In this document: in pieces, positions 17,011 through 23,007 of the stretch
How positions within the stretch are numbered: the stretch's first letter is position 1
Layout of the letters: every line of letters starts with the position of its first letter
Assembly: GCA_003597995.1 (NCBI GenBank)
Contig: QZJY01000020.1
Span: 1 to 35,253 of the forward strand
Direction of reading: 5' to 3'
DNA: 35,253 nucleotides
Origin: Dehalococcoidia bacterium
Lineage (GTDB): Bacteria; Chloroflexota; Dehalococcoidia; Dehalococcoidales; UBA1222
The notes under the pieces: model-generated
What the model was told of the DNA's origin: nothing
Seen by the model: only the letters and a program-made list of their open reading frames with translations
The model's database searches: none
Made by a program: the position numbers and the translations under genes

Positions 17011-17019
17011 AGAGAAAAA
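17011..17019. repeat. Left target-site duplication of the outer transposon
   Basis: AGAGAAAAA abuts the left inverted repeat and is repeated exactly at 22999-23007 against the right inverted repeat. With a one-base shift it could be an 8-bp duplication, the size typical of IS6-type elements. Confidence 0.7.
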
Positions 17020-17041
17020 GGTTCTGTTCGGTATTCGTGGA
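17020..17041 (+). repeat. Left terminal inverted repeat of outer transposon
   Basis: Begins GGTTCTGTTCGG and continues TATTCGTGGA. It matches the complement of 22977-22998 except at positions 3 and 13. Confidence 0.85.
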
Positions 17042-17053
17042 TACTATTCGAGG

Positions 17054-17215
17054 CTATTTAAAGCTGCCTTTACTTATTTCCTTAATGTCTTTTTGCATTT
17101 CCTTTAACGTCTGAGAAATCGTTTCTAAGTTCTCATTTATCCCGACAAGCGCATCTGTTATTTGCTCCATGACAATTCCAAATCTAGTCTCAATGTAACC
17201 TTCTTTACCTACCAT
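17054..17215 (-). CDS. Small coiled-coil protein next to the methyltransferase
   Basis: About 53 aa. After MVGKEGYIETRFGIVM the rest is a predicted helix with heptad spacing (MEQITDALVGINENLETISQ and onward to KEISKGSFK). No domain is recognised. The chosen ATG has GGGGGA six bases upstream; an upstream ATG in frame lies inside the end of the methyltransferase gene and has no ribosome site. It follows the methyltransferase by 19 bases and is likely co-expressed. It could be a partner or multimerisation factor for that enzyme, which is inference from position. Confidence 0.55.
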   Translation of the reverse strand: MVGKEGYIETRFGIVMEQITDALVGINENLETISQTLKEMQKDIKEISKGSFK

Positions 17216-17234
17216 CATTCTTCCCCCTTCTGTT

Positions 17235-18557
17235 TTATTTAAGGCTTTTATCAAGCTGTAACTCGATTATTTCGGACACTTTTATCGGGCGGATGGTAAT
17301 ACCTTCTTCTCTTTCAGCCCTGCGGATTTCCTTATCAGCATCACGGCTAAAGTCAAAACCTACAAATATGCCCTGATTCCGCTTATCTCGTTTCATGGCT
17401 GTAATAAACCCATCTATTTCTGGTCGTCCTACTTGGTCGGTTCTTTTAACTTGTATCGGAATATAGTTATCTATTTCCCCGAATAAATCCCGCTTGTCCG
17501 ATTTTTCTTTTTGAATATCCTCTATCGGATATAATTTCCCATCAATGCCCATATCCCTAACCCTAGCTTTGTTCGGGATTCCACCTATGGCATTTATAGC
17601 CCAATTTTGGAATTCAAATGCAGGATAGACCCTCAATTCTTCAACAGATTTTGGCATATCCCGCACGATAAAATCCCCGCCCTCTTTCAACGCCATGCTT
17701 TCGAGTCGTTGCGCCATAACCCTGCAAGCAGTAGGGGATATATCAATGCCTATCCATTTACGCTTTAGTAATTGCGAGGCGACTATCGTTGTTCCGCAAC
17801 CACAAAATGCATCGAGGATTACATCGCCGTCCTTACTACATGAGCCTACGATTCGGTTCAATAGCGTCAAGGGTTTTTGGGTAGGATACCCAAGCCGTTC
17901 TTTAGCAGATGTATTGATGATTGGTATGTCCCAAACATCATCTATCGCACGCCCATTATCAACCACTTCATCAATGTATATTTTATATTCGTGGCTTTTG
18001 CCCTTACCAGCATGCCCCCATATCCATTCACGCCCATCTTCATCCCTATGAAGTTCCTGTTTTTTCATTTGGAGGTATTCTTCACGTGTATATTTTTCGG
18101 AGGGGTAATTATAAATTACGCCATGCTCACTTTTTGCATAGAACAAAATATCATCATGCTTTGAATTGAATTTGTTTTGTGATACCATCCTGCGCCCTGT
18201 GTAATGCCAAACAATGTTATTTCTAAAATTGTTATACCCAAAATAATCATCCCTATCTAGTAAGACCTTAATGTAATGTGCCGCGTGCCAATCGCAATGA
18301 TAGAAAAATAAGCCAGTATTTTTTAATACACGATATAACTCTTTAAGGCGTGGCGACATATAATCTACATACGCACGCGCATCTTCAAATCTATCCTCAA
18401 AATGCCGCTTTTCTTGCTCTTGCCAAAACGCTACATAGTTACGATTAGAGCTGAAGGGTGGGTCTATGTAAATAAGGTCTATGCTTTCGTCTGGTATCTC
18501 TTTGAGTTTTTTAAGACAATCGCCGCAATAGATTATATTTGTTAGCAATTCAGACAT
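17235..18557 (-). CDS. Site-specific DNA methyltransferase fused to an Mrr-like nuclease domain
   Basis: The 440-aa protein starts with a beta-class amino-methyltransferase (N6-adenine or N4-cytosine): motif IV DPPF at 32-35 comes before motif I DAFCGCGTT near 248-256, in the order of beta-class enzymes. The C-terminal third (about 310-425) has WAINAIGG, then DMGIDGKLYP near 337 and IPIQVKR near 367-373, matching the D...QxK core of Mrr-type restriction nucleases. A single protein could therefore both modify and cut DNA, or cut foreign-modified DNA. Start ATG has GGAGGTG. A likely extended -10, TGGTAAAAT, lies about 30 bases upstream. No separate restriction gene is present in the element. 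Confidence 0.85.
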   Translation of the reverse strand: MSELLTNIIYCGDCLKKLKEIPDESIDLIYIDPPFSSNRNYVAFWQEQEKRHFEDRFEDARAYVDYMSPRLKELYRVLKNTGLFFYHCDWHAAHYIKVLLDRDDYFGYNNFRNNIVWHYTGRRMVSQNKFNSKHDDILFYAKSEHGVIYNYPSEKYTREEYLQMKKQELHRDEDGREWIWGHAGKGKSHEYKIYIDEVVDNGRAIDDVWDIPIINTSAKERLGYPTQKPLTLLNRIVGSCSKDGDVILDAFCGCGTTIVASQLLKRKWIGIDISPTACRVMAQRLESMALKEGGDFIVRDMPKSVEELRVYPAFEFQNWAINAIGGIPNKARVRDMGIDGKLYPIEDIQKEKSDKRDLFGEIDNYIPIQVKRTDQVGRPEIDGFITAMKRDKRNQGIFVGFDFSRDADKEIRRAEREEGITIRPIKVSEIIELQLDKSLK

Positions 18558-18611
18558 AGCACCTCCAAGTTCATCGCTATTTTACCACACACGCACAAGT
18601 AGGTGTTGATT

Positions 18612-18640
18612 TTGACAAACATAAATCTAAAGAATACTAT
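18612..18640 (+). promoter_or_regulatory. Near-consensus sigma70 promoter for the zinc-ribbon/transposase transcript
   Basis: A perfect TTGACA (18612-18617) and TACTAT (18635-18640) are separated by exactly 17 bases. It points at the zinc-ribbon gene at 18683 and the transposase gene after it. The methyltransferase gene diverges from the same 125-base gap. Confidence 0.75.
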
Positions 18641-18666
18641 ATAGGTAATACTGTGTTAGTATTCTT
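18630..18666. promoter_or_regulatory. Inverted repeat overlapping the -10 and start site, possible operator
   Basis: AAGAATACTA (18630-18639) is the exact complement of TAGTATTCTT (18657-18666), separated by 17 bases. The left half overlaps the -10 box and the right half lies in the early transcript, followed by a T-run. It could be a repressor site or an early terminator/attenuator hairpin. Confidence 0.55.
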
Positions 18667-18682
18667 TTTTAAGGGGTGATTA

Positions 18683-18814
18683 ATGCCAGCTAGAAAAGTA
18701 ATCCACATCAAGACTTGCAAAAGGTGTAAGCATAAGTGGATGGCTAGGGTAACTAACCCTACTGTATGCCCCAACTGCATGAGCCCTTATTGGAATAAGG
18801 CCAGAAAGAAATAG
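18683..18814 (+). CDS. 43-aa zinc-ribbon protein
   Basis: Codes for a 43-residue basic protein with two paired-cysteine knuckles: TCKRCKHKW near residue 12 and VCPNCMSPYWNK near 29. This is a typical rubredoxin-like zinc ribbon, expected to bind nucleic acid or protein. AAGGGG precedes the ATG and the near-consensus promoter is about 45 bases upstream. Its TAG stop is followed two bases later by the ATG of the transposase gene, so it is the first gene of the transposase operon and a candidate regulator of transposition. The function is inferred from position only. Confidence 0.65.
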   Translation: MPARKVIHIKTCKRCKHKWMARVTNPTVCPNCMSPYWNKARKK

Positions 18815-18816
18815 AT

Positions 18817-18944
18817 ATGGAAAAGATAGTTTTCAAAGTGTAAGCGAATTATCGCAAGCATAGAAAGGTCTATAAATATACGCTGACTGAATTCGGTTGT
18901 AAGCATTGCGGTTCTAACGAAGTCGTCAAGTATGGTCTTGAAGG
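18817..18944 (+). pseudogene. Outer-element IS6/IS240-like transposase, 5' part, with in-frame UAA at codon 9
   Basis: Begins MEKIVFKV, then TAA at 18841-18843, then continues in the same frame through ANYRKHRKVYKYTLTEFGC to the zinc-ribbon start CKHCGSNEVVKYG. The frame then runs into the inner insertion after the first two bases of a Gly codon. Between the TAA and the first zinc-ribbon Cys there is no ATG, GTG or TTG, so a normal internal start that keeps the ribbon is not available. The missing remainder is at 21082-22066. Either the stop is a decay mutation, or it is read through. Confidence 0.75.
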
Positions 18945-19014
18945 GGTTCTCATGCAACTGGGTGTAATCTATCTCCCGCTAGGTGTATGCTACCTCAATG
19001 TGAGGTAAAAGCAT

Positions 19015-19608
19015 ATGAGAAAAAAGCTAATCTCGGCACTGATAACAATTTGCACGTCATTCGTGGGGTGGGGGTGGCCAATGGCGGCTAATTGGTTCCA
19101 GATGATAGCTAGAGTCATTTCTATAATATCCTTTATTATTTTAGTAATGATACTTGCTAAAAAATGGCTTCGAAAACCTATCCAGTCAATCGGAAACTTC
19201 TTCTTTTCGTTGCTCGAAGAAGATAATAACCTATGCGTGTTCCCATATATCAGAATAATTAACGCTTATAGAGCGTATTTTAATGACGAAGCACTTGTTT
19301 TTGTTACAGTATTTCTGCCAAGCTCACTCATTATTAAACGTCAATTTAAACTTAAGGGGACACTCACACTTAGCGGCCATCCAAGTGAATCTCCGTTTAT
19401 TAAAACTATAGAAGTAAACGCCCAAGCGGTAAATCGAATAGATGCTTGGGAGTTTCCAATAAGCCAAGACACACTTGAGCTTATTAAAACCCGTGTTAAT
19501 GAGGGGAAGCCATTTAGCGCTGTTCTCCATTTAGAAGATATAGATAATACTGGTATTCATTGGGATACCGAAGAATGGACAACATTACTTTTGACAAAGG
19601 TGAATTAA
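19015..19608 (+). CDS. Passenger membrane-anchored protein of unknown function
   Basis: A 197-aa protein with one or two N-terminal transmembrane helices (about residues 5-24 and 30-50), then a soluble domain of mostly beta-strand character (VFVTVFLPSSLIIKRQFKLK, GTLTLSGHPSE, TIEVNAQAVNRIDAWEFPIS). I do not recognise a family. It begins about 48 bases inside the left repeat of the inner element and ends two bases before the transposase ATG, so translation of the two is probably coupled. AT-rich like the rest of the element. Its role in transposition or host fitness is unknown. Confidence 0.6.
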   Translation: MRKKLISALITICTSFVGWGWPMAANWFQMIARVISIISFIILVMILAKKWLRKPIQSIGNFFFSLLEEDNNLCVFPYIRIINAYRAYFNDEALVFVTVFLPSSLIIKRQFKLKGTLTLSGHPSESPFIKTIEVNAQAVNRIDAWEFPISQDTLELIKTRVNEGKPFSAVLHLEDIDNTGIHWDTEEWTTLLLTKVN

Positions 19609-19610
19609 AT

Positions 19611-20558
19611 ATGCCTCATCCTAAATTTGAAATTTGCCATGCTTCGATAGCTGGTGCGAAGCCATATAAGCACGGCTCGCACACCCTTCATGTATGCTCG
19701 GCTGATAGCGATATAGGGCATCGGCATTTCACCGAGCCTGAGCCGATTGTCTGCAAATGGTGCGGTTCAAAAGACATTATGAAATACGGCATAAGCGAAG
19801 GCGGGCAAGAGTATATCTGCAAAGTATGCAAGCGTAAATTCACTAACCGAGACATGCCTTTTGGCAAGCGTTCGACTGCCGAGAATATTGGTACGAGCAT
19901 TAGTTCCTACTATGACGGCCTCTCGTTTGCCGATATTGCTCGGCATCTTTCCGAGAGCGGCAATCCCGTAAACGAGTCTACTGTCTATCGCTGGGTAATT
20001 TCATACACTGAGAAGGCCGTCAAAATGATGGAGTCGTATAAGCCTAAAGTGGGTGGAATTTGGATTGCCGACGAAACGGCTATCAAGTTTAATGGCGAGC
20101 TTTATTGGCTTTGGGATTTAATTGATAAAAATACCCGTTTCCTATTGGCAAGCTACCTTTCTGAAAAACGTGGGACATATCAAGCACAACGCCTGATGGA
20201 GCTGGCCGCCAAACGTGCGGGTAGGATTCCTAAGACAGTCATCACCGATAAGCTGGCTGCCTATTTGGATGGCATAGAAGTGCCCTTTGGCTCAGATACC
20301 GACCACATTCAAAGTTCGCCTTTTGCAGCGCAAGATGACACGAACGTTATAGAGAGATTTCAAGGGACTATCAAAGACCGCACAAAGGTCATTCGAGGCT
20401 TCAAAACACTTGAGACAGCCATAATCATACTTGACGGCTTCTTGGTTCACTATAACTTTTTCAAACCGCATCTTTCACTGGGGAAAACGCCTGCTGAACA
20501 GGCAGGTTTAAAGATACCATTCAAAACGTGGACTGAATTTGTGAGGGGGGATAAATAA
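19611..20558 (+). CDS. IS6/IS240-like DDE transposase of the inner element
   Basis: A 315-aa transposase. A zinc ribbon (VCKWCGSKD near 50, ICKVCKRKF near 72) is followed by a helix-turn-helix region (GLSFADIARHLSESGNPVNE, STVYRWV) and an RNase H-fold core. The core shows IWIADETAIKF (first Asp, near 160), VITDKLAAY (second Asp, near 222) and NVIERFQGTIKDR (catalytic Glu, near 258), closing with HYNFFKPHLSLGKTPAEQAG. This is the IS6/IS240 pattern. ATG 19611 is preferred over an upstream in-frame TTG because AAAGGTGAA precedes it and the upstream gene ends next to it. It appears intact. Confidence 0.88.
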   Translation: MPHPKFEICHASIAGAKPYKHGSHTLHVCSADSDIGHRHFTEPEPIVCKWCGSKDIMKYGISEGGQEYICKVCKRKFTNRDMPFGKRSTAENIGTSISSYYDGLSFADIARHLSESGNPVNESTVYRWVISYTEKAVKMMESYKPKVGGIWIADETAIKFNGELYWLWDLIDKNTRFLLASYLSEKRGTYQAQRLMELAAKRAGRIPKTVITDKLAAYLDGIEVPFGSDTDHIQSSPFAAQDDTNVIERFQGTIKDRTKVIRGFKTLETAIIILDGFLVHYNFFKPHLSLGKTPAEQAGLKIPFKTWTEFVRGDK

Positions 20559-20559
20559 G

Positions 20560-20736
20560 ATGGCAAACAGCTTTGTTTCCCATGCGTTAGAATCAATAGA
20601 TTATGGCAAAATCCTGAGAAGCAAATTTGAAGAATCTAAGGGATTACGGGAAACCGAAATTAGTATAAAAAATCTACTTGTTAAGGTGTGGAAGATGGGT
20701 TCGTTAGCTTCTCGCCCATCTTCTCAATCAAAGTAA
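20560..20736 (+). CDS. Short reading frame coupled to the inner transposase
   Basis: A 58-aa frame beginning MANSFVSHALESIDYGKILR one base after the transposase stop. No domain is recognised. Its last 18 codons overlap, in the opposite direction, the end of the convergent gene at 20681-21010. It may be a real coupled gene or chance; the tight start position is the main support. Confidence 0.4.
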   Translation: MANSFVSHALESIDYGKILRSKFEESKGLRETEISIKNLLVKVWKMGSLASRPSSQSK

Positions 20737-21010
20737 GCATCACAGTGTTATTTGTGGCAGTTGTGATACTTTGAGCACGAAGATAGGCAACTAAAATTCG
20801 AATGAAATTATTGAGAGTATCATTGATGTTTTCGACCTTGATTTCGCTAATTAAATCTTCCCATTCACTCCATTCTGGAGGCGATTCACCATGTTCACTC
20901 GCTTCGAGTTCTGAATCGTATTTATCAAGGAATAGCCTTAGTAATTCTATTGTATTTTTTGTGATTGTAGCGGGGTCAGTCATAGCCTTTATAGCATCGG
21001 TATTTTCCAC
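20681..21010 (-). CDS. Passenger acidic helical protein of unknown function
   Basis: A 109-aa acidic protein, largely helical, with an aromatic-acid stretch GESPPEWSEWEDLISEIKVE and no signal peptide. The start is a GTG with GGGGGTGGAG just upstream. It lies between the inner transposase and the right repeat, facing the transposase. No family is recognised. Being on the opposite strand, it has its own promoter and may be independently expressed. Confidence 0.55.
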   Translation of the reverse strand: MENTDAIKAMTDPATITKNTIELLRLFLDKYDSELEASEHGESPPEWSEWEDLISEIKVENINDTLNNFIRILVAYLRAQSITTATNNTVMLTLIEKMGEKLTNPSSTP

Positions 21011-21081
21011 GCTCCACCCCCTTATGCGCTTTAACTATTATACCATGAGGTTACACTCCGATGCATGAGAACCCTTGAAGG

Positions 21082-22066
21082 TGGGATTCAGTATTTTTGG
21101 TGCAAAACCTGTCAGCGTAAGTTTGCCGATAATGATGCCTTGCCTGGTATGCATACCCCAATCCCACAAGTTTCATCATCCTTGAATATGTATTACTCTG
21201 GCATGAGCATAGACGAAATACGCTTGCACCTAGACCAAGAGCACAACAACAAGCCTTCAGACAGCACGATTTACGACTGGATTAAGCGGTTTAGCACCGA
21301 AGCAAAAGGGGCAACCGACACATATAAACCAAATGTCGGGGATGTTTGGCTTGCTGATGAAACAGTCATTGATTTAAATGGGGTCAAGGCATTTTTCTGG
21401 GATTGTATCGATGTAAAGACCCGTTTTTTATTAGCATCACAACTTACATACAATCGCACCAGCCAACATGCGAAAAATCTTATCGAAATGGCTGTAAAGC
21501 GTGCTGGCAAGCAACCAAAGAAATTGATAACAGATAAACTAGGCGCATATGTTGAAGGGGCTGAATCGGCATTAGGTGGGGATACAGAGCATATACAGAC
21601 TAAAGGCTTCATAGTCCAGCCAAATACAAACTTGTTAGAGCGTTTTCACGGCTCATTAAAGAGCCGAACAAAAGTCATGCGTGGCTTAAAAACGCCTGAA
21701 GGTGCTTCGATGATTCTTGACGGCTGGTTAGTCTATTACAACTTCTTTAGACCTCATGAAAGCCTAGAGAACAAAACGCCCGCCGAAAAAGCGGGCATCA
21801 AATCCACAATGCAAAACTGGCGTGATGTAGTCGTGCAATCAAGAGGAACTAACCTTAATTATGATACTGGCGAATTGTTGGCACGACTTCCAGAATGGCA
21901 ACGGCTTACACGCCCATCGGTAGATATGGGAACACCCACTAGATACGGGCTAACAAAAAAGAAAAAGGGGGTGATGAAAAAGCGAGTGAAAAGAGCACCA
22001 GTCATAGAGGTTGCACGGATGCCGATGATAACGGCAATCTCTCTAAATAGACGTAAGAGCAGATAA
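21082..22066 (+). pseudogene. Outer-element IS6/IS240-like transposase, 3' part
   Basis: Continues the frame that begins at 18817: deleting the inner element and one copy of CTTGAAGG joins KHCGSNEVVKYGLEG to GIQYFWCKTCQRKF and yields a protein of about 370 codons. The second zinc knuckle CKTCQRKF is followed by VWLADETVIDL (first Asp), LITDKLGAY (second Asp) and NLLERFHGSLKSR (catalytic Glu). A basic C-terminal extension (TKKKKGVMKKRVKR) distinguishes it from the inner transposase. The ATG at 21065 lies within the inner element's repeat and is not a true start. The stop TAA lies in the loop of a hairpin. Confidence 0.85.
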
Positions 22067-22087
22067 CTACTAATTACCTGCTCTTAC
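22053..22087 (+). other. Perfect 10-bp hairpin between the transposase end and the tRNA
   Basis: GTAAGAGCAG (22053-22062) and CTGCTCTTAC (22078-22087) pair perfectly around a 15-base loop that contains the transposase stop TAA (22064-22066). No T-run follows, so it is not a typical terminator. It ends 11 bases before the tRNA and could be a processing or translation-control structure. Confidence 0.65.
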
Positions 22088-22098
22088 CCATTCGGCAA

Positions 22099-22170
22099 GG
22101 GGGCTTGGTCTAAAGGTCAGGACATCTGTCTTTAACACCGATAATGCGGGTTCGATTCCCGTAGCCCCCA
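22099..22170 (+). tRNA. tRNA with anticodon UUA (predicted ochre suppressor)
   Basis: The sequence folds as a full cloverleaf. Acceptor GGGGGCT/AGCCCCC pairs over 7 bp, with discriminator A at 22170. D-arm GTCT/GGAC with loop AAAGGTCA; T-arm GCGGG/CCCGT with loop TTCGATT. Conserved T8, A14, G18G19, A21, T33, T54T55C56, A58 and C61 are all in place. The anticodon stem TCTGT/ACCGA has one U-C mismatch. The 7-base loop CTTTAAC (22130-22136) puts TTA at 22132-22134, which would read UAA. The variable loop is short and no CCA is encoded. The charging amino acid cannot be told from sequence. Confidence 0.75.
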
Positions 22171-22240
22171 CTTGTCCCTTATCTGTATCCTAAAGCTATT
22201 TATTCCGATTGTCAATGTAGATTTAAGGAGGTTAGTTAAT

Positions 22241-22570
22241 ATGCCAATTCCTAAAAAATGGTCAAAATTCACAAAAGATAATGTGAATAAGCTAGATGGT
22301 AGTCGTGGCTCATATGAGTTGGCGAATAAAGATAAACGGATAATAGACATTGGCGGCAGTGATTGCGGAAGTGGTGGTTGCCGCAATAGACTACAGTCGC
22401 ATCTGCGTGATAACAAATATCCTACCGCCAGGTTTTTTCGTGTCCATGAAGCTAATCTTTTTGATAGTGGCATATCTTTGGAAGCCTCTCATAGCTCAAA
22501 ATATCAGGGCAAAACGGGCAGAAAACCTCGCTATACACAACGCTCTCCCAAAAAGAATAATTGGTTTTAG
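22241..22570 (+). CDS. Divergent GIY-YIG-like protein
   Basis: A 109-aa basic protein. GSRGSYELANKDKRIIDIGG (about 20-40) resembles the GIY...YIG strands of GIY-YIG nucleases, with GSY and DIG in place of the name motifs; RNRLQSHL follows with the conserved Arg position, and a Glu occurs at ISLEASHSSKYQ. The tail GRKPRYTQRSPKKNNW is strongly basic. The first Tyr-type residues are partly replaced, so activity is uncertain. An AAGGAG Shine-Dalgarno sits 12 bases before ATG 22241. It could be a structure-specific nuclease of the element; the family call is tentative. Confidence 0.5.
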   Translation: MPIPKKWSKFTKDNVNKLDGSRGSYELANKDKRIIDIGGSDCGSGGCRNRLQSHLRDNKYPTARFFRVHEANLFDSGISLEASHSSKYQGKTGRKPRYTQRSPKKNNWF

Positions 22571-22749
22571 CCCACTCTAATATCTAAACCATCGCTAGAA
22601 ACACGGGCGGATTTGTAGATTCGTTCTAACTCTGCCCGTGTTTTGTATTTCAAACCCTTTAATAGTGTAGCCCTAACGAATGGCTTGGCTTTTTTAGTCT
22701 TGTCTTTTATCCCGTGAATTAATTCCGCTTTAGTCAATGTGTTTTCCAT
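22567..22749 (-). CDS. Small helical protein, paralog A
   Basis: A 60-aa basic protein whose pattern KAELIHGIKDKTKKAKPFVR...LLKGLKYKTRAELERIYKSARV closely matches the neighbouring protein at 22764-22949 (about half the residues identical). It looks like a short helix-loop-helix nucleic-acid-binding domain of SAP-like style, but I do not recognise a named family. The ATG has GGGGGTG upstream. It converges with the GIY-YIG-like gene, overlapping its end by four bases. Confidence 0.6.
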   Translation of the reverse strand: MENTLTKAELIHGIKDKTKKAKPFVRATLLKGLKYKTRAELERIYKSARVSSDGLDIRVG

Positions 22750-22763
22750 CACTTTTCACCCCC

Positions 22764-22949
22764 TCATTTTGAATATCTAATCCCCGTCCCATCTTTATCT
22801 ACTCGAATAGACCCATAAATCCTTTCAAGAGTTGCTTTGGGCTTATTGTCTAAACCTCTTAATAAGTCTGCCCTGACTATGGGTTTTGCCCTCTTTGTTT
22901 TAGTCCTTATTCCATCTATTAACTCTGATTTTGAAAGGTTACTTTTCAT
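22764..22949 (-). CDS. Small helical protein, paralog B
   Basis: A 61-aa basic protein, tandem paralog of the gene at 22567-22749: shared pattern SELIDGIRTKTKRAKPIVR, then LLRGL, LERIYGS and RVDKDG. The two are separated by 14 bases and almost certainly form one transcript arising from a duplication. Its start is only 28 bases inside the right terminal repeat, so a promoter would overlap the transposon end or lie outside it. Function unknown. Confidence 0.6.
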   Translation of the reverse strand: MKSNLSKSELIDGIRTKTKRAKPIVRADLLRGLDNKPKATLERIYGSIRVDKDGTGIRYSK

Positions 22950-22976
22950 ACCTAAATTACCCCCGTCTTGGCTCTT

Positions 22977-22998
22977 TCCACGAATTCCGAACAGAGCC
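22977..22998 (-). repeat. Right terminal inverted repeat of outer transposon
   Basis: Ends in CCGAACAGAGCC; its complement begins GGCTCTGTTCGG and continues AATTCGTGGA, matching the left end at 17020. Confidence 0.85.
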
Positions 22999-23007
22999 AG
23001 AGAAAAA
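22999..23007. repeat. Right target-site duplication of the outer transposon
   Basis: AGAGAAAAA directly follows the right inverted repeat and equals 17011-17019. A further CCAGAGAAAAAT occurs 22 bases downstream (about 23019-23030), so the target itself may have been repetitive. Confidence 0.65.

Follow-up and report, generated by a model that had tools for sequence, protein, structure and literature searches.

Known brakes on transposases are frameshifting, antisense RNA and weak starts. In IS1 and IS3, programmed frameshifting limits the transposase and fuses the catalytic part to a stretch encoded upstream (PMC5009743). An in-frame stop codon is also read for a mobility enzyme in the gag-pol read-through of murine leukaemia virus, where a UAG codon is decoded with host tRNAs and an RNA pseudoknot (mentioned in PMC5009743). 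Stop-recoding phages carry suppressor tRNAs for their own in-frame UAG or UGA codons, which occur across many genes (PMC11210395). The IS6 family of insertion sequences is described with 8-bp direct target repeats and with terminal repeats having the tip GG and internal cTGTt and caaa motifs; ISDsp3 from Dehalococcoides is a passenger-carrying member (PMC7986276). Here we describe an IS6-like transposon in a window of 35,253 nucleotides (the whole stretch of DNA analysed, contig C20, QZJY01000020.1) from a Dehalococcoidia bacterium with an assembly of 1.8 Mb in 71 contigs and a completeness of 95.5 %. The transposon has a UAA codon near the start of its transposase frame and, behind the transposase, a tRNA gene with the anticodon UUA. 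The same pair was found in an intact relative, and it is probable that the tRNA, as an ochre suppressor of the element's own, lets a fraction of the ribosomes make the full-length transposase.

Phage recoding can be regarded as a near functional analogue, with a mobile element supplying the tRNA for its own in-frame stops. The phages recode many genes, whereas only one UAA would be read here, in a single gene of a transposon of 2.2 kb whose host terminates genes with UAA. The transposase UAA was the sole in-frame one found in the element, the other open reading frames (ORFs) being uninterrupted. As in IS1 and IS3, recoding would limit the transposase and join an upstream stretch to the catalytic part, however the frame is kept and the decoding is proposed to depend on a trans-acting tRNA made by the element. 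In the same way a dedicated own tRNA is proposed in place of the host tRNAs and the pseudoknot used by the murine leukaemia virus.

The UAA codon and the UUA tRNA in two elements

The transposase frame in the window starts with ATG (18817-18819), continues with GAAAAGATAGTTTTCAAAGTG and meets TAA at codon 9. An earlier note on this DNA had described this codon as the single internal stop, and the frame proved open otherwise on both sides of a second, inner element that splits the gene. The note had also read a cloverleaf with the anticodon TTA downstream of the transposase. ARAGORN recovered it as the only tRNA of the window (22099-22171, plus strand), and the Rfam tRNA model gave it 62.2 bits, with a gathering score of 29; this value falls among those of the host tRNAs (52-77 bits) and does not mark the locus as non-functional. 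The window copy itself makes no transposase because the gene is interrupted, while its tRNA is intact.

The decisive comparison came from a search of the window transposase against 393 genomes of the class. The best match, with transposases about 56 % identical, was in a genome from another family of the same order, designated G135. The G135 element (locus L034/L063) is intact, spans 2188 bp (L063:9320-11507), has 22-nt ends matching those of the window element and is flanked by its own 9-bp duplication TGGCAGATG. It consists of a 45-aa zinc-ribbon ORF, an ATG, eight further codons, TAA, the remainder of the transposase, a hairpin and a UUA tRNA; this layout and the order of UAA and tRNA are shared by the two elements. 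The N-termini read MEKIVFKV-UAA-ANYRKHRKVYKYTLTEFGCKHC in the window and MTDKVIYQV-UAA-GYGHRRKVSKYVLTDFGCKYC in G135, where the frame has no other stop before its normal end. ARAGORN called the G135 tRNA as tRNA-Stop(tta), and its scores, like those of the window tRNA, were those of ordinary tRNAs. A complete tRNA fold with the anticodon UUA is present in both copies according to ARAGORN and Rfam. The earlier note had allowed for the UAA being simple decay of a disrupted copy. The sole intact relative found retains both the UAA and the UUA tRNA and contradicts this; the UAA in the window is therefore not decay. The note's proposal that transposase production is tied to the element's own ochre suppressor tRNA gains support from the same copy.

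Other related loci were examined within the available stretch, usually 1.5 kb on each side of the transposase. In about 55 of them neither an N-terminal UAA nor a UUA tRNA was found, and the loci with an N-terminal transposase UAA were exactly the loci with the UUA tRNA. Relatives lacking the tRNA had open N-termini. The N-terminal extension of the relative in G112 aligns across the UAA site with the sense codon ACC in its place; no tRNA was found on its 4.8-kb contig. Related transposases flagged for stop codons (e.g., in G431, G432 and G455) were rejected as further cases, having no in-frame UAA in the conserved N-terminus and no suppressor tRNA nearby.

The stretch around the UAA was compared between the two copies at the level of bases and residues. 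Nine of the 21 bases before the UAA differ, and the resulting residue changes are conservative (E/D, K/K, I/V, V/I, F/Y, K/Q, V/V). In simulations with the same number of random changes such a similarity was reached with p ~0.0014, the similarity of the seven residues from the UAA to the first GTG of G135 with p ~0.01, and that of the whole stretch up to the zinc ribbon in none of 20,000 runs. On either side of the UAA the codons evolve in the manner of coding sequence. A frameshift reading was rejected, as the other frames around the UAA are without conservation. In a tree of 58 transposases the window and G135 copies were sisters (support 99/98) with branch lengths of 0.59 and 0.76 (changes per site). 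Four-fold degenerate sites were 39.5 % identical (30 of 76), thus the synonymous sites are near saturation. A rough estimate from this one sequence pair put the neutral survival of the three UAA bases at ~0.06 and that of the UAA codon together with the anticodon at ~0.004. As judged from these comparisons, it is well supported that selection has kept the UAA and the UUA tRNA together.

The tRNAs of the two elements agree at 60 of 73 positions (82 %), and neither exceeds 68 % identity with any tRNA found in its own host. In the T stem, pairing is preserved at two pairs through two-sided changes. The best host match was Gln(CUG) in both hosts, followed by Glu(CUC) in the host of the window; the other tRNAs found in both hosts are ordinary. 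With a best host-tRNA identity of 68 %, a recent mutation of a host tRNA was ruled out, and the element tRNAs appear to form a separate mobile lineage rather than to be recent host mutants. By the tRNA identity rules, the D stem is Glu-like, as is the short variable loop, but A36 sets the anticodon apart from those of Glu and Gln. Judging by the body of the tRNA and its UUN anticodon, we guess that Glu, Gln or Lys would be inserted at the UAA.

Further carriers of such a tRNA were sought across the order (156 genomes, strict pattern) and across the class (393 genomes, blastn); only the window and G135 matched. Scans of genome contigs with the window transposase and of viral contigs with the G135 transposase gave no confirmed match. 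The tRNA-UUA pattern had no match in viral contigs, nor had blastn of the tRNA against phages and plasmids. Matches to the terminal-repeat pattern on two viral contigs were discarded, neither transposase nor tRNA being present there. In genome contigs the tRNA-UUA pattern matched three loci, none of which is this element. Two of these (L067 and L068) were rejected, since ARAGORN sees no tRNA in either. The third (L066:5363-5437, DVIL01000038.1, Candidatus Coprenecus, Bacteroidota) is a chromosomal Glu-type tRNA with the anticodon TTA between gltX-like and rpsT-like genes, with tRNA-Glu(CTC) nearby. This locus may hold a genuine suppressor, or else the assembly may be wrong at what is usually the place of tRNA-Glu(TTC).

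Proposed decoding of the UAA and alternative explanations

The arrangement can be read as a lock and a key. The lock would be the transposase UAA (codon 9 or 10), which precedes the zinc ribbon and has conserved coding sequence on either side, and the key the dedicated UUA tRNA on the same strand behind the transposase. A promoter-like site precedes ORF1 in the window, and its counterpart TTGACA-18-TAGTAT stands at the same place in G135, while a scan of the plus strand from the transposase end to the tRNA found no promoter-like site in either copy; we therefore infer one transcript running from ORF1 through the transposase and the hairpin to the tRNA. The hairpin of G135 (z -3.9) has the same place as that of the window and an unrelated sequence, and a processing site is our guess for its role.

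Most ribosomes that start on the transposase would terminate after 8 or 9 residues, and the remaining fraction would decode the UAA as an amino acid and complete the protein. In the host of the window UAA is a normal stop codon, not a reassigned one: the genome has two full-length RF-1 type release-factor genes (RF1 and RF2), 8 of 20 window genes terminate in UAA and the tRNA set is ordinary. With release factors present and genes ending in UAA, the element tRNA must compete with the release factors, and the charged tRNA in this competition would set the read-through fraction. Transposition would thereby be low and dosage-dependent and would be linked to elements whose transcription reaches the tRNA, and the element would be independent of suppressors in its host. 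Co-transcription, charging, read-through and the regulatory effect are the steps that we infer here. For the stricter version, a private decoding in which one programmed UAA is read efficiently only by the own tRNA and acts as a dosage-sensing lock, so that only tRNA-carrying elements move, the balance tips slightly to the positive side.

Several observations weigh against suppression by the element's tRNA. Both known copies belong to one lineage, so that they represent a single evolutionary event, and one anticodon-stem pair is mismatched in each element tRNA. Many relatives have very short N-termini, and since they work with these, the transposase may not need the residues ahead of the ribbon. 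The G135 frame contains GTG codons at positions -9 and -5 relative to the ribbon.

The GTG codons bear on the strongest of the alternatives, a re-initiation or alternative start. The ATG-UAA would then be a short leader coupled to ORF1, the transposase would start internally after the UAA and the tRNA would be an unrelated passenger; in several relatives the start does lie only a few residues from the ribbon. The earlier note had stated that no start codon lies between the UAA and the ribbon. This holds for the window copy, which has no ATG, GTG or TTG from the UAA to the CxxC ribbon, and fails for G135 with its two GTG codons, so that re-initiation after the UAA is conceivable in that copy. 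However, the residues before the UAA and those from the UAA to the first GTG are conserved as protein, and the pairing of the UUA anticodon with the UAA would be left unexplained. We consider this explanation unlikely.

Less likely again, and rather improbable, is a tRNA kept for another purpose, such as UAA codons in genes of the host or of competitors or the 3'-end processing of the transposase mRNA, with a secondary effect on the transposase UAA. In favour of this, no UAA in the cell would be exempt from a suppressor, and processing could be signalled by the hairpin that precedes the tRNA, but mRNA processing would need no conserved UUA anticodon. The exact coincidence of N-terminal UAA and tRNA among the loci also speaks against another purpose, and read-through of the transposase UAA would follow anyway. 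A chance nonsense codon in a dead element with a degenerate or miscalled tRNA fits the split window copy, yet it is very improbable in view of the same UAA and UUA tRNA in the intact relative, the scores of both tRNAs and the absence of any other stop in either transposase frame.

Layout of the transposon and its passenger genes

The outer transposon ends in 22-nt inverted repeats (17020-17041 and 22977-22998) and is flanked by the perfect 9-bp target duplication AGAGAAAAA (17011-17019 and 22999-23007), which was absent from the earlier note. Its G+C content is 41 % compared with 53-55 % in the surrounding DNA, which fits an incoming element. The features are compiled in Table 1.

Table 1. Features of the outer transposon in the window
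Feature	Position	Strand	Remarks
Outer IS6-like transposon	17020-22998	+	5979 bp with the inner insertion counted
Passenger gene, DNA methylase with C-terminal Mrr-like nuclease stretch	17235-18557	-	Pfam N6_N4_Mtase E 4e-51, Mrr_cat E 4e-5
Promoter-like site TTGACA-17-TACTAT before ORF1	18612-18640	+	consensus match only
ORF1, small zinc-ribbon protein of 43 aa	18683-18814	+	kept in the intact copy G135
Outer transposase, 5' part	18817-18944	+	ATG, codons 2-8, UAA, start of zinc ribbon
In-frame UAA, transposase codon 9	18841-18843	+	equals codon 10 in the intact copy G135
Inner IS6-like element	18945-21073	+	splits the outer transposase gene
Outer transposase, 3' part, DDE domain (IS240/IS6 type)	21082-22066	+	open to 22066
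Hairpin spanning the transposase stop codon, immediately before the tRNA	22053-22087	+	z -4.8
tRNA gene, anticodon UUA (22132-22134), predicted ochre suppressor	22099-22170	+	ARAGORN, Rfam; CCA not encoded
Passenger gene with DUF7508 domain	22241-22570	+	Pfam DUF7508 E 2e-8
Tandem pair of 61-aa ORFs	22567-22752 and 22764-22949	-	close paralogues of each other

The transposases of both copies matched Pfam DDE_Tnp_IS240 (E 2e-16 in the window, 1e-18 in G135) and are of the IS6/IS240-type with a DDE domain. The element resembles the zinc-finger clades h and i of the IS6 family (PMC7986276) in this domain, in the N-terminal CxxC zinc ribbon and in the tips GG..CTGTT; its terminal repeats GGTTCTGTTCGG and GGTACTGTTCGG contain GG and CTGTT, with no caaa at that place. 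Unlike the family, it has target duplications of 9 bp in both copies instead of 8 bp, several passenger genes, the in-frame transposase UAA and the UUA tRNA. The NCBIfam model transpos_IS6 gave 119.6 bits for the window and 124.4 bits for G135, with a cut-off of 125. The element is IS6-like and is kept outside IS6 membership because of the 9-bp duplications and the scores just below the cut-off.

In the window ORF1 stops 2 nt upstream of the transposase ATG. In G135 it ends in the tandem stops TAA-TGA (L063:9888-9893), the first of which is overlapped by the transposase ATG; this tandem stop would shield ORF1 from a UAA suppressor. The methylase/Mrr-like fusion may be a gene of the restriction-modification type. 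The inner element is flanked by the 8-bp duplication CTTGAAGG (18937-18944 and 21074-21081), and the transposase encoded in it (19611-20558) is free of internal stops. It carries a 197-aa ORF and, on the opposite strand, a 109-aa ORF, neither with a Pfam match.

Implications for transposition and decoding

To our knowledge, the pairing of a UAA with the element's own tRNA has no precedent as a control of a transposase. A search of open-access PMC full texts, with subscription papers outside its scope, found no transposon-encoded suppressor tRNA. If the proposed decoding is true, transposition would be controlled in a new way here, by a single stop codon in the transposase together with a suppressor tRNA of the element's own. 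The transposon would also give a compact natural case of a selfish element that alters decoding for itself in a host with the standard code. This raises the questions to what extent UAA suppression is tolerated by a host and whether mobile tRNAs could seed the reassignment of stop codons.

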